A stretch of DNA of 24,294 nucleotides from Candidatus Aenigmatarchaeota archaeon. GTDB lineage: Archaea > Aenigmatarchaeota > Aenigmatarchaeia > QMZS01. This document shows, one piece after another, positions 1 through 21,285 of this stretch. Both the position numbers and the translations under genes were made by a program. The stretch is from positions 1 through 24,294 of the forward strand of contig JAFGCN010000004.1 in the NCBI GenBank assembly GCA_016932615.1, in the 5' to 3' direction. The notes under the pieces were generated by a model. The model searched no databases. It saw only the letters and a list, made by a program, of their open reading frames with translations, and was not told the DNA's origin. Positions within the stretch are counted from its first letter, which is position 1; each line of letters starts with the position of its first letter.

Positions 1-21
1 AGTAATAACATATAATAACCT

Positions 22-125
22 TAAAAAATAATACTTGTTGTTGAAAAAATACCTTTTTTAATAATTTCCGGTGCTTTTTTAAGCAGATTGAAGTGTTCCA
101 CAGGAAATGATGGGGTGAAGCCCCA
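22..125 (-). terminator. possible 3' end of the AAA+ ATPase transcript
   Basis: A short hairpin (TGGGG/CCCCA, 111-125) lies directly after the minus-strand stop codon. Further downstream the minus strand has T runs at about 44-49 and 23-28, the usual form of archaeal termination signals. No gene is visible in bases 1-128. Confidence 0.3.
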
Positions 126-128
126 AAA

Positions 129-1208
129 TTATGCCTTTACAAGTTTGGTTCTGGTTTGCGGGCCGAGAAGATATGCGTATGCCTTTCCGTTTTTGCTTCT
201 TTCTATATATCCTTCTTCAAGCATTCTTTTGAGAAGATTATTTACAGCACGAAGAGCGTGTTTTTCCGAAGGATAATCATTTATTTTCTTTGCAAGGTCT
301 GTCGGTGTTTGCGGTTCTTCTTCAAGCAAAAGGTCTATTATTTTTTTCTGTTTTTCGGGAAGATCCTTTAATTTGTTCGCGTCATAATTTCCTATTATTT
401 TTCCTGATTTGGATTCGCCAAGCAGGTTTTCATTTATTTCGTCTGCGTTTTTCTCTGCAGCGAGGTTAAACATGTGGTTGCATAAAGTAAGGACATCTCT
501 GGGAAAGCCACCTGTTCTCTGGTATATGAAATCTATGGATTTTGGAGTAAATGGGCGAATTTCTTTTCCTCCCGCGTATTCTATCCTCTTTCTTATAAGC
601 TCTTCAGTTTCGTCTCTTGACAGGGCAGACAGTTCTATTTTTTCGCTTACCCTCTTTTTTAAGGTTTCCAGGTTTTTTGTAAGGATATCATCAAATATTG
701 GAAGGCCGGATAGCACAAAGGTTATATTTTGAGTCTGGTCGGAAATTACCCTTAGCCACTCGAGAACTTCAATGCTTGCCTCGTGGGCTTCGTCTATAAA
801 TATTACCTTGTGTTCATTTGTAATTTTGTTAAGGTAATCTGAAATGTGGTGGACCTCTTTGGGCTTTTTTAGAAACAAACGAGTTATGAATGGAACGTCT
901 TTGTGGAAATAATCTGCAAGTTTTATCAGCTCTTCGGTCTTTCTGGGCGGCTTTCCAACAAATATATAATTTTTTTGGCTATCACAAAGGTGGTTTATCA
1001 GGGTTGTCTTTCCACTGCCAGTGGGACCCATGAGAAGCAGCAATTTCTGGCGCTGTTCGATGTTTCTTAAAAGAGTTGCGACCTGGTTTTTATAGCCCAC
1101 CCTGAGGGAAGGAATTATCTCAAGAGTGAAGGGGGTTCTTTGCAACTCATGCTTTTTTAGCCATTCCCTATATTTGCCAATTTCATCTTCTCTTTCCATT
1201 TTGTTCAT
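129..1208 (-). CDS. AAA+ ATPase with C-terminal winged helix; candidate Orc1/Cdc6-like initiator
   Basis: A 359-residue P-loop ATPase. Walker A is GPTGSGKT (61-68) and Walker B is IFIDEAH (136-142). There is a sensor-1-like stretch NITFVLSG (161-168), a GGFPRD sensor-2-like arginine motif (R237), and a C-terminal winged-helix region (about 285-350). This ATPase-plus-winged-helix layout is that of archaeal Orc1/Cdc6 origin-binding proteins, but the GG-x-PR motif is closer to the ExeA/TniB branch (AAA_22), so family membership is uncertain. The reading frame extends to a GTG at 1238, but that codon lies inside a TTCACGTGAA palindrome. I chose the ATG at 1208; the ATG at 1199 is also possible. 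The gene borders a kilobase of the same palindrome, which suggests that this protein binds it. The initiator role is inference. Confidence 0.85.
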   Translation of the reverse strand: MNKMEREDEIGKYREWLKKHELQRTPFTLEIIPSLRVGYKNQVATLLRNIEQRQKLLLLMGPTGSGKTTLINHLCDSQKNYIFVGKPPRKTEELIKLADYFHKDVPFITRLFLKKPKEVHHISDYLNKITNEHKVIFIDEAHEASIEVLEWLRVISDQTQNITFVLSGLPIFDDILTKNLETLKKRVSEKIELSALSRDETEELIRKRIEYAGGKEIRPFTPKSIDFIYQRTGGFPRDVLTLCNHMFNLAAEKNADEINENLLGESKSGKIIGNYDANKLKDLPEKQKKIIDLLLEEEPQTPTDLAKKINDYPSEKHALRAVNNLLKRMLEEGYIERSKNGKAYAYLLGPQTRTKLVKA

Positions 1209-1233: not shown

Positions 1234-2220
1234 TTCACGTGAACACTCTATAACCATAATTTAGGATGCGGGTATATAAATATAGATTTGCGTGAAATTA
1301 ATTTCTTCATATTGTTTCACGCGCCATCTTTTTTGAGAAGAATTGGGGGCGGCGGCGAAGCAACGTATTGTTTATGAAGGTTTGGATTAATTCACGTGAA
1401 CTTCACACATCTTTAAAAGGTTCACCTTAAGAATGGAAGCTTGTGGATTGTTCCTCTCAGACTGCGCAATGATGGAGGGCTTTTTCACGTGAAATTCATA
1501 CACAAGCCCATATTAGTGGAATGTGCCTGGAGACATATGTATGGGGGAGCATATAGTTTTATTGTCATATTCACGTGAACTTCATGCTATTATGTGAACT
1601 ATGTGTGAACATCTAACTCTTTTTAGGGAGGGGTCTATTTTTTGTGAGAGTGTTTGTGGTGGCTTTGGGGACGGTCCGATCTCTATAACTGTTGCCTTTT
1701 ATAAGTTCACGTGAATATACTGTCCATATGCAGCCCGTATTTTTTCATTAATAGCATATTCACGTGAATTTCGTACCAAATTAAGGTTTTCTGCCCTAAC
1801 AGTTTCTGTGTCAAATCATCCTTGGGGGGTTTGTCCATGAAAAAGAATTGTTCACGTGAACTTCATATTATTTGGCGATAAATTGGATTAATTTAATCTT
1901 TATACCCCGATGCTCGCATTAGTTGAGCATTTCGTTTATGGTTTGCCTGCTCTTTTTTGTATAAGGGAACCATATATTCACGTGAACTTCACGCGTCGAC
2001 AGAAGGTTCCTGTGAGATTATTGTAGGTATTTAATCTAATCTCCAACCCCCAAGCTTATCTGCCCTTAACTTCACGTGAAGTTCACATGTGCAGAGATGT
2101 TCTTAAGGTGGTCAAGAAACCCCCCTTTAATTTGGCTTAGTTTTTAACCCTATATATAGAGGGGACCAGATTCACGTGAACTTCACAATCCCTGGAGGGG
2201 CTTGTTCACGTGAAGTTCAC
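1234..2220 (+). repeat. array of eleven TTCACGTGAA palindromes
   Basis: Exact copies of TTCACGTGAA start at 1234, 1391, 1484, 1570, 1706, 1759, 1851, 1977, 2071, 2171 and 2205. Start-to-start spacing runs from 34 to 157 bases. Nine of the eleven are followed on the + strand by one base and a third half-site: TTCAC at 1391, 1977, 2071, 2171 and 2205; TTCAT at 1484, 1570 and 1851; TTCGT at 1759. The copies at 1234 and 1706 lack it. The full box is TTCACGTGAA[c/g]TTCAC. All the extended copies point the same way. Isolated half-sites also occur, for example GTGAAC at 1594 and 1605. The irregular spacing and short unit exclude a CRISPR array. Confidence 0.97.
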
Positions 2221-2244: not shown

Positions 2245-2538
2245 TTAAATATTCTTTGAAATCTCAAGGAATTTCCTCAATCTCTCAAGGCCGCCTTCAC
2301 GTATAATATCTACGACCTTTGGCTTGAGCCGTATTATCCTTAGCCCAAAATGGTTTCCTTTACCATCCTTTATTCCAAGATTATCCACTATATCGGAAAG
2401 GTCGCGCTCAAGGTAACGGTGAAGCGTTGCCGGAGGCACCTTTGTTATTTTAGAAAGGTTTCTAAGCCAGATTCCTTCCGGCTGGGCTGCCAGAACCTTA
2501 ATAATATTGTCCATTCTTGCCTGCTTGCTCGCCCCCAT
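2245..2538 (-). CDS. small winged-helix DNA-binding protein
   Basis: A 97-residue basic protein. Residues about 8-50 read as a helix-turn-helix: IIKVLAAQPEGIWLRNLSK, then a recognition-like helix PPATLHRYLERDL. A wing-like segment and a C-terminal helix follow. This resembles archaeal MarR/ArsR-like or generic winged-helix regulators, but I cannot name a family. The ATG at 2538 is about 23 bases from an AT-rich TATA-like tract (2556-2566), consistent with a leaderless message. It is encoded in the same direction as the ATPase, with the palindrome array between them. It could be a regulator of, or partner in, the candidate origin, or an unrelated neighbour. Confidence 0.75.
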   Translation of the reverse strand: MGASKQARMDNIIKVLAAQPEGIWLRNLSKITKVPPATLHRYLERDLSDIVDNLGIKDGKGNHFGLRIIRLKPKVVDIIREGGLERLRKFLEISKNI

Positions 2539-3594: not shown

Positions 3595-3610
3595 TTCACG
3601 TGAAGTTCAC
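3595..3610 (+). repeat. isolated twelfth origin-type box
   Basis: A full box, TTCACGTGAAGTTCAC, identical to the best-formed members of the array 1.4 kb away and in the same orientation. It lies between the hypothetical membrane gene and infB, about 100 bases before the infB start codon. Confidence 0.9.
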
Positions 3611-20032: not shown

Positions 20033-20326
20033 TCAATTGGTGTCTTGCATATACTCTATGACTATGTTAATTATTTTTTTGACTGTCGGATTACAATGTT
20101 GAAAGTATATTTTGTCTAAAACCCCCACCCCTTTTTTCCTAATTACATCACTTATCAGGGCGTGTATGAATGACTGGGTGGCGGATTCAATCCCTTCAAA
20201 ATTGATTACTACTTCTTCACCAATATTCAACGCAGGAAGAAGTTCTCCGAGTCTTATATCTCGGGCAATATCTTTATTTTCTGCGAAACTCCCCCCAACT
20301 TTCTTGAAAATATCTATTTCTTTCAT
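20033..20326 (-). CDS. STAS-like domain protein (DUF4325)
   Basis: 97 residues. The segment EEVVINFEGIESATQSFIHALISDVIRKKG (about 37-66; key features V-x-x-x-F-x-G and S-F) matches the STAS-like DUF4325 core, in which a strand, a loop with Ser, and an amphipathic helix resemble SpoIIAA-type anti-anti-sigma proteins. It starts inside the end of the ATPase gene (ATGA overlap, 20323-20326), so the pair is translationally coupled. SpoIIAB/SpoIIAA-like pairs switch partners through phosphorylation; archaea have no sigma factors, so any target must differ. The codon choice is AT-rich compared with the neighbours. Confidence 0.82.
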   Translation of the reverse strand: MKEIDIFKKVGGSFAENKDIARDIRLGELLPALNIGEEVVINFEGIESATQSFIHALISDVIRKKGVGVLDKIYFQHCNPTVKKIINIVIEYMQDTN

Positions 20327-21285
20327 ATGAATTTTGCACCCTTGTATTTTTGTTGAGTTCTTTCCTTCCTTCCTTTTCGGTATACTGTTCGGATTAAGTC
20401 TAGGAGCGAATTAAATTTTTCGTGACTGCCTAAGGAGATATCAATTCCAACAGCAGTCCCTTGCCAATGTGGTAAATTATTCCCCTTAGAATGGTTATCC
20501 TTAAACGGGTCTGAAGGGAGTCTTATTTCTTTGTGGAGGGGAGTTTTCAAAAGCTTATATAGACCGTTTCCGCTGTACATCATAAAAAAATCTCGGTTTA
20601 CCTTTGCAATTGATTTTATAAAGAACAAGCCCGCACCTGCATTTTCGCCAGTTCCACCAATTTTTCTGGTTGTGCCGGTTATTCCAGGTTCCAACGCGAG
20701 TCTGATCGAGGAGAGATCATCTTCAGGATGGTAGCATCTAGTTAGTGATTCTTTTATACCTATACCTCGGTCAACAACACCAATTCGTATGATATTGCTG
20801 TCCTTATAATATTGGGCACAAACAATTGCTCCCACAGGAGACTTTGCATGTTCAAAAACATTTCTGACCAATTCACTTATCACATATTTTATTGACTCCA
20901 CCTCTTCCGGCTTTTTATGTAGAAGTGGAATCATTTCAGTTATAAATCTATCCAGTTGTGGATTATCTTCAATCTTTTGTATAGGTATAAAGCGTCCGGA
21001 AGATTCATGTGTTTTTATATGCATCTCAGAGTCCAGCCCTAAAAGTTCAAATAAGCCCATTCTTTCAAAATAGTGTTTGGACCGGGCCTCCATTTTTTTA
21101 AAATTCAGTTCCGAGGGTCTGACTGAAAGTCCTAGTCCTGCAACCATACAGAGTACCACCGGATGTACTGATACCCAACTTTTATGAGAAGTTATCTCGA
21201 GAGTGGTTTTATCCGTGGTATTGAATGAACGAATAAAGGGATCAATATTCCCTATCCAAGCACTATTTGGAAGATTAATTTTCAT
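20323..21285 (-). CDS. GHKL (histidine-kinase-like) ATPase partnered with a STAS-like protein
   Basis: 320 residues. The N-terminal 125 residues match no domain I know. Then comes a Bergerat ATP-binding fold: N box ELVRNVFEHA (138-147, Asn142), G1 box DRGIGI (172-177) and G2 box GGTGENAGAGL (210-220). No histidine phospho-acceptor domain, HAMP, PAS or membrane helix is present, so it is a soluble ATPase or serine kinase of the anti-sigma type and not a sensor kinase. The C-terminal tail is very basic (RKGRKERTQQKYKG). It is first in a two-gene operon with the DUF4325 gene. AT content is higher than on either side, which points to horizontal acquisition. Confidence 0.88.
   Translation of the reverse strand: MKINLPNSAWIGNIDPFIRSFNTTDKTTLEITSHKSWVSVHPVVLCMVAGLGLSVRPSELNFKKMEARSKHYFERMGLFELLGLDSEMHIKTHESSGRFIPIQKIEDNPQLDRFITEMIPLLHKKPEEVESIKYVISELVRNVFEHAKSPVGAIVCAQYYKDSNIIRIGVVDRGIGIKESLTRCYHPEDDLSSIRLALEPGITGTTRKIGGTGENAGAGLFFIKSIAKVNRDFFMMYSGNGLYKLLKTPLHKEIRLPSDPFKDNHSKGNNLPHWQGTAVGIDISLGSHEKFNSLLDLIRTVYRKGRKERTQQKYKGAKFI

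Follow-up and report, generated by a model that had tools for sequence, protein, structure and literature searches.

Among the closest described counterparts of the locus reported here are the Orc1/Cdc6-ORB pairs of archaeal origins, with which it shares an AAA+, winged-helix protein encoded beside repeated dyad or half-site motifs, with orc1 nearby. MuB and TnsC, two filament-forming AAA+ proteins, serve transposition target choice. Extra, non-ORB origin motifs also exist, such as ucm in Sulfolobus, whose reader, UBP, is a small protein of 111 aa distinct from Orc1 (PMC12141716). In Haloarcula, an ORB cluster negatively controls oriC2 (PMC4010727), and in the SegAB system of Sulfolobales the sites of SegB lie mainly close to segAB (PMC12284271). 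The ucm/UBP pair, the Haloarcula ORB cluster, the SegB sites and the Orc1-family protein Orc1-2 offer precedents for reading the present locus in terms of replication, control or segregation. How chromosomes are started and separated in the archaea considered here is essentially unstudied, and our searches of the open-access literature yielded no description of either the array or the ATPase that we describe.

The stretch of DNA that we analyzed (the window) is 24,294 nucleotides long and corresponds to the whole of contig C4 of a Candidatus Aenigmatarchaeota archaeon, whose genome of 1.26 Mb is distributed over 29 contigs.

An array of phased half-sites

The array extends over positions 1214-2219 on the forward strand and contains 11 exact copies of the 10-bp palindrome TTCACGTGAA (starting at 1234, 1391, 1484, 1570, 1706, 1759, 1851, 1977, 2071, 2171, and 2205), together with further TTCAC/GTGAA half-sites, 33 in total. 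A first-pass annotation of this DNA had reported eleven exact palindromes filling about 1 kb, with a chance expectation far below one. We recovered them at 1234-2214, and the expectation is indeed about 0.03 (0.027) exact boxes per window and 1.4 per genome. When up to two mismatches to TTCACGTGAA are tolerated, the window contains 28 matches, compared with 11 ± 3 in dinucleotide shuffles. Genome wide, there are 15 exact boxes, of which 12 are on the window contig, two on C21 (2.2 and 4.7 kb from the end of C21 that carries orc1) and one on C17. The probability that at least 11 of these 15 would fall inside 1 kb is ~1e-31. The twelfth box of the window, absent from the annotation's list, is found 1.4 kb past the array, in an extended form, TTCACGTGAAGTTCA (3595-3609, forward strand), between an unassigned ORF and an aIF2/IF-2-type gene.

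As for the fine structure of the boxes, a third half-site is found 11 bp downstream of 9 of the 12, on the forward strand every time (TTCACGTGAA-N-TTCA). The resulting extended box, TTCACGTGAACTTCA, occurs at 1391-1405 and again, on the same strand, at 1484, 1570, 1851, 1977, 2071, 2171, and 2205. The real unit of the array is the half-site TTCAC, which is finer than the 10-mer. Searches of the window for RNA families and tRNAs found none. Elsewhere in the window, a DUF4325 (STAS-like) protein gene overlaps a gene for a HATPase-type protein, forming a two-gene unit (20033-21285), and the right contig end (22610-24294) is a stretch of ~1.7 kb with no convincing gene and a GC content above that of the rest of the contig.

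The 10-bp core is identical to that of bacterial parS, and several copies sit near an origin, which could suggest a true bacterial-type parS bound by ParB. We consider this hardly credible. The full parS 14-16-mer, GTTTCACGTGAAAC (PMC7022226), flanks the core with GTT..AAC, which was found in 0 of the 12 boxes, and no ParB (TIGR00180) scored over the cut-off in the 60 genomes searched, the genome of the window included. The neighboring ATPase is AAA_22/initiator-like rather than a ParA/SegA-type partner, and ParA-like genes are on other contigs.

The ATPase and the small winged-helix protein

The genes that flank the array are those which the first-pass annotation had described. On one side (129-1199, reverse strand) is an AAA+ (AAA_22), initiator-like ATPase with a C-terminal winged helix. 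Its ORF can open as far as a GTG at 1238 but, since this codon falls inside the first box, a start at ATG 1199 or 1208 is more likely. On the far side of the array (2245-2538, reverse strand) is a 97-aa winged-helix protein, for which about 22 genomes have a strong homologue in the corresponding place across the array, whereas some families have none there.

The Orc1/Cdc6-like architecture that had been proposed for the ATPase was borne out by structural comparison. The model (pLDDT 88) displays the AAA+, lid and C-terminal winged-helix fold of Orc1/Cdc6, and its top PDB matches are archaeal Cdc6/Orc1 structures, covering nearly the whole chain. With Aeropyrum pernix ORC2, VIA-align gives a Z of 17.8 over 315 aligned residues, the rmsd of 8.8 likely reflecting domain movement. 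The values are similar for MuB (Z 17.6, rmsd 4.4 over 229 residues) and TnsC (Z 17.5). However, the ATPase scores only 17 bits against the Orc1/Cdc6 family profile TIGR02928, for which the cut-off is 181.3. Judged by sequence, the ATPase is not an Orc1/Cdc6 member and, judged by its model, its AAA+ core is as close to MuB and TnsC, which form filaments, as it is to Orc1/Cdc6. As for its provenance, a mobile-element origin was considered and rejected: no phage homologue was found, and plasmid matches are generic AAA ATPases, 24-29% identical. In the one annotated context examined for such a plasmid homologue (a Halobacterium plasmid), there were no origin signs.

The small winged-helix protein is modeled as a generic winged helix, with equally generic matches, and the Foldseek list includes 5k5o/4rs8 (AspA) with an E of about 0.03. 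The two proteins differ in the conservation of their recognition helices. In the ATPase, this helix (HAxRSVNNILxRL) has an entropy of 0.94 bits, compared with 1.53 for its domain and 1.5-1.6 elsewhere, while in the small protein it shows no extra conservation (1.51 bits, compared with 1.54 for the domain). An invariant recognition helix fits an invariant half-site, which favors the ATPase over the small protein as the putative reader, although the small protein could be the binder instead.

The annotation had suggested looking for the same pairing of gene and array in relatives, and the pairing recurs throughout the class. The ATPase is present in 48 of 60 relatives, and the gaps upstream of it contain 11-47 half-sites in 32 of the 32 loci examined, compared with 0.3-2.6 expected from mononucleotide shuffles, an enrichment in TTCAC/GTGAA of about tenfold. 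Half-sites on the same strand are spaced by 11, 20-22, 31, or 42 bp, with a period of 10.25-10.5 bp (R 0.70, compared with ≤0.08 for random placement), and this register is kept by the palindromes (5-bp offset) and by divergent pairs (6-bp offset). Such spacing would put the half-sites on one face of the helix. Among the families, f1, f2, f3, f5, and f12 have R values of 0.63-0.83; in f10, phasing is weak (R 0.34) and the half-sites lie largely inside the neighboring coding gene. Of the 60 genomes, 36 contain phased triples, and the reversed control is found in 5; among the matches listed, nearly all triples are at the ATPase locus. Extended boxes are likewise rare elsewhere and mostly found there. 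Boxes are present in 38 of 48 genomes with the ATPase and in 3 of 12 without it (Fisher 8e-4), counts that are not independent since the genomes compared are related. In at least two of these three exceptions (G001 and G005), the arrays are at contig ends. Not every member of the class has the system: in f17, f19, and f20, genomes without the ATPase are also without the array.

Two further features of the relatives concern the surroundings of the ATPase. In f10, a diverged winged-helix protein is encoded on the other side of the ATPase from the array, with a PRC-barrel gene in between. The PRC-barrel gene (PF05239) and the diverged winged-helix gene adjoin the ATPase, away from the array, at L059:8350-8610 (f10) and L145:7105-7735 (CP070662). 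Proteins with a PRC barrel have been connected with cell division in archaea. In the gaps of L069 (G031), L071 (G030), and L066 (G041), the part proximal to the small winged-helix gene contains repeated TGTGAGAGT/TGTGAG words, which are perhaps read by another protein, for instance the small winged-helix one.

That the array is directly upstream of the ATPase at every locus, often between it and the winged-helix gene, is what would be expected of an autoregulatory operator, bound by one or both proteins only to control their own transcription. A report on Orc1-2 points in the same direction, as it describes Orc1-family proteins that can be regulators rather than initiators (PMC9738581). Yet an operator would need far fewer than the 11-47 phased half-sites that occupy up to 1 kb here, those of f10 run into a neighbor's coding region, the twelfth box is well past the array, and half-sites recur far from the ATPase, beside ORBs and on contig C9. 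We regard an operator function as distinctly improbable.

A probable canonical origin next to the array

The first-pass annotation had read the array as a replication origin with a new type of box, fired by the ATPase as its initiator, and had named a clear orc1/cdc6 with canonical boxes elsewhere in the genome as evidence that would speak against it. We found just such a gene on C21 (394 bits for TIGR02928), 69 bp from the right end of the contig, with canonical ORBs. One ORB is directly upstream of orc1 on C21 (13 of 16 consensus positions), and another, GTTCCACAGGAAATGATGGGG, with a G-string and 14 of 16 positions, is at 95-115 of the window, on the forward strand. In relatives, the DNA upstream of orc1 displays ORB motifs, TTTCCANNNGAAANNAAGGGG, with a G-string, around an AT-rich dyad. 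The idea that a new box replaces ORBs is not supported. A strict ORB pattern matches 33 of 60 genomes, mostly near orc1, and 0 in the reversed control; this pattern and that of the half-sites were defined after viewing these sequences, and their reversed controls are nearly empty. In the genome of the window, the strict pattern is found at 96-115 and at C9:46743.

In two relatives from the same family (G004 and G008), the gene order is small winged-helix gene, array, ATPase, two inverted ORBs ~190 bp apart, and orc1. Since our two ORBs have the same orientation relative to the ATPase and to orc1, this synteny points to the right end of C21 and the left end of C4 as two halves of one oriC. The left edge of the window (1-128, an AT-rich stretch followed by the ORB, cut by the contig end) is therefore very probably half of a canonical oriC, and joining C21 to C4 would place an ordinary oriC ~1.1 kb from the boxes. 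More generally, the ATPase and orc1 are 1.4-60 kb apart in 24 of 24 genomes in which both are on one contig, and their proximity on eight large contigs has a combined P of 0.005.

These findings support one half of the annotation's proposal and undermine the other: the locus is linked to an origin, with orc1 within 60 kb, whereas the array itself is a poor candidate for one. Speaking for the array as an origin are the initiator-like fold, the repeated dyads beside an initiator-type gene, the AT-rich DNA and the conserved pairing. Nonetheless, we regard this reading as very improbable. Synteny places the canonical orc1/ORB origin ~1.1 kb away, in relatives it is within 60 kb, and two independent origins that close would be odd. 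The array (1214-2219) contains no ORB motif, the only strong ORB of the window being that at 95-115. GC skew, sampled on stretches of G031 and G051, is too weak and noisy to place an origin. Together, the canonical orc1, its ORBs and the synteny make it improbable that the array is a new type of oriC; it is a separate, origin-linked element.

The half-sites are also found beside ORBs. Within 150 bp of strong ORBs there are 96 half-sites, compared with 30 expected and 21 for a control word, a count that is not a formal test since some of the windows overlap. Upstream of orc1 alone, enrichment is only about twofold (46 vs. 23), so the link to ORBs rests on the strong ORBs and on two other kinds of sites, one beside polB and the other on C9. 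Several families are exceptions, with no half-sites close to ORBs (f1 and f2, at orc1, and some f8). The first kind of site is a second ORB site that separates polB from a TctA-family gene, a few kilobases from orc1, with clusters of 5-8 half-sites in G056, G024, G046, G037, and G020; in these families, it may act as the working origin. These conserved ORB and half-site regions are at L204:7238-7406, L205:3392-3591, L206:5123-5322, L208:3825-3956, and L209:3470-3682. Besides polB, orc1 and a gene resembling that of the DNA polymerase D small subunit are found nearby, with the TctA-family gene where both flanks were identified. The other site is in the genome of the window, where a second ORB, TTTCCACGTGAAACAAGGGGG, is found upstream of an ABC transporter, in an intergenic region (C9:46743-46903, L184:8720-8920). 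It has seven TTCAC/GTGAA half-sites within 180 bp, among them the only phased triple of this genome, 114-160 bp from it. This is possibly a second origin.

A proposed docking array near the origin, compared with known systems

The array appears to behave like an initiator-and-box system beside an origin. We tentatively propose, with somewhat less than even confidence, that this kilobase serves, close to the origin, as a docking array on which the neighboring initiator-type ATPase acts with Orc1 at oriC. From what the sequence shows (a phased array, conserved with the ATPase and linked to orc1, and half-sites of the same kind next to ORBs), we infer a binding protein, a filament and an effect on replication, as follows. 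The C-terminal winged helix of the ATPase would read one TTCAC half-site per helical turn, and protomers with bound ATP would assemble along one face of the double helix, with nucleation at the TTCACGTGAA palindromes. The resulting nucleoprotein array would cooperate with Orc1 at the canonical oriC nearby, either as an auxiliary initiator or as a control site, a role like that of DnaA-box clusters, and the small winged-helix protein would be an accessory.

Since as much as 60 kb can separate the array from orc1, the array is not necessarily part of oriC, and this variable distance keeps alive the main rival reading, unlikely though it is in our view, in which the array is centromere-like. It would then be an archaeal counterpart of parS, a segregation site near the origin that, with the ATPase, the small winged-helix protein or both bound to it, pairs or tethers newly replicated origins. 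Proximity to the origin (1.4-60 kb) with no contiguity with ORBs is also the situation of bacterial parS (PMC7333895), whose core is identical to the palindrome (PMC7022226). The form of the array and the small winged-helix protein recall AspA of archaeal plasmids (5k5o/4rs8), and a diverged winged-helix gene is near the ATPase in f5/f10, with a PRC-barrel gene between them in f10. However, AspA is just one among many generic winged-helix matches, the ATPase is not ParA/SegA-like, and the genome encodes ParA-like and SMC proteins elsewhere. Moreover, the TTCAC half-sites beside ORBs at origin-like sites favor a role in replication over one in segregation.

Taken more broadly, it is an even call whether this DPANN-type class has a second machine in the origin region, beside the orc1/ORB origin, in which an Orc-like ATPase sits in register on phased TTCAC half-sites and either co-activates or times the origin or marks a centromere, converging on the parS core. 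As the ATPase is found class wide, is linked to the origin and has an evident DNA address, the question could be addressed with a single purified protein and a single oligonucleotide. Were the ATPase a second initiator, archaeal origins could run two initiator systems in parallel. Were it a segregation factor, the array would be an archaeal centromere that uses the parts of neither ParABS nor SegAB and yet converges on the core sequence of parS.

Set against known systems, the docking array that we favor resembles Orc1/Cdc6-ORB pairs in the features named above, and ORBs containing CACGTG exist in this clade, as on C9 (TTTCCACGTGAAACAAGGGGG). In contrast to ORBs, the boxes are without the TTCC..GGAA core and the G-string and consist of 5-bp half-sites phased at 10.5 bp; besides, a separate canonical orc1 with ORBs exists, and the score of the ATPase falls far short of the orc1/cdc6 cut-off. 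Bacterial chromosomal parS (ParABS) similarly has the TTCACGTGAA core in several copies near the origin, but here there is no ParB, the flanks are different, the boxes are inside phased half-site arrays, and the neighboring ATPase is AAA+ rather than ParA. SegAB of Sulfolobales and AspA-ParB-ParA of pNOB8 are archaeal segregation systems with a small DNA-binding protein, whose SegA/ParA ATPases are of another type than the AAA+ protein here and whose arrays have a different form. With MuB/TnsC, the AAA+ core superposes at 3.7-4.4 Å over about 230 residues, whereas the winged helix and the conserved DNA sites set the present protein apart, and no transposase was seen. Finally, unlike ucm, one 11-bp motif between two ORBs, the array spans a kilobase outside the ORB pair and is tied to an AAA+ gene.
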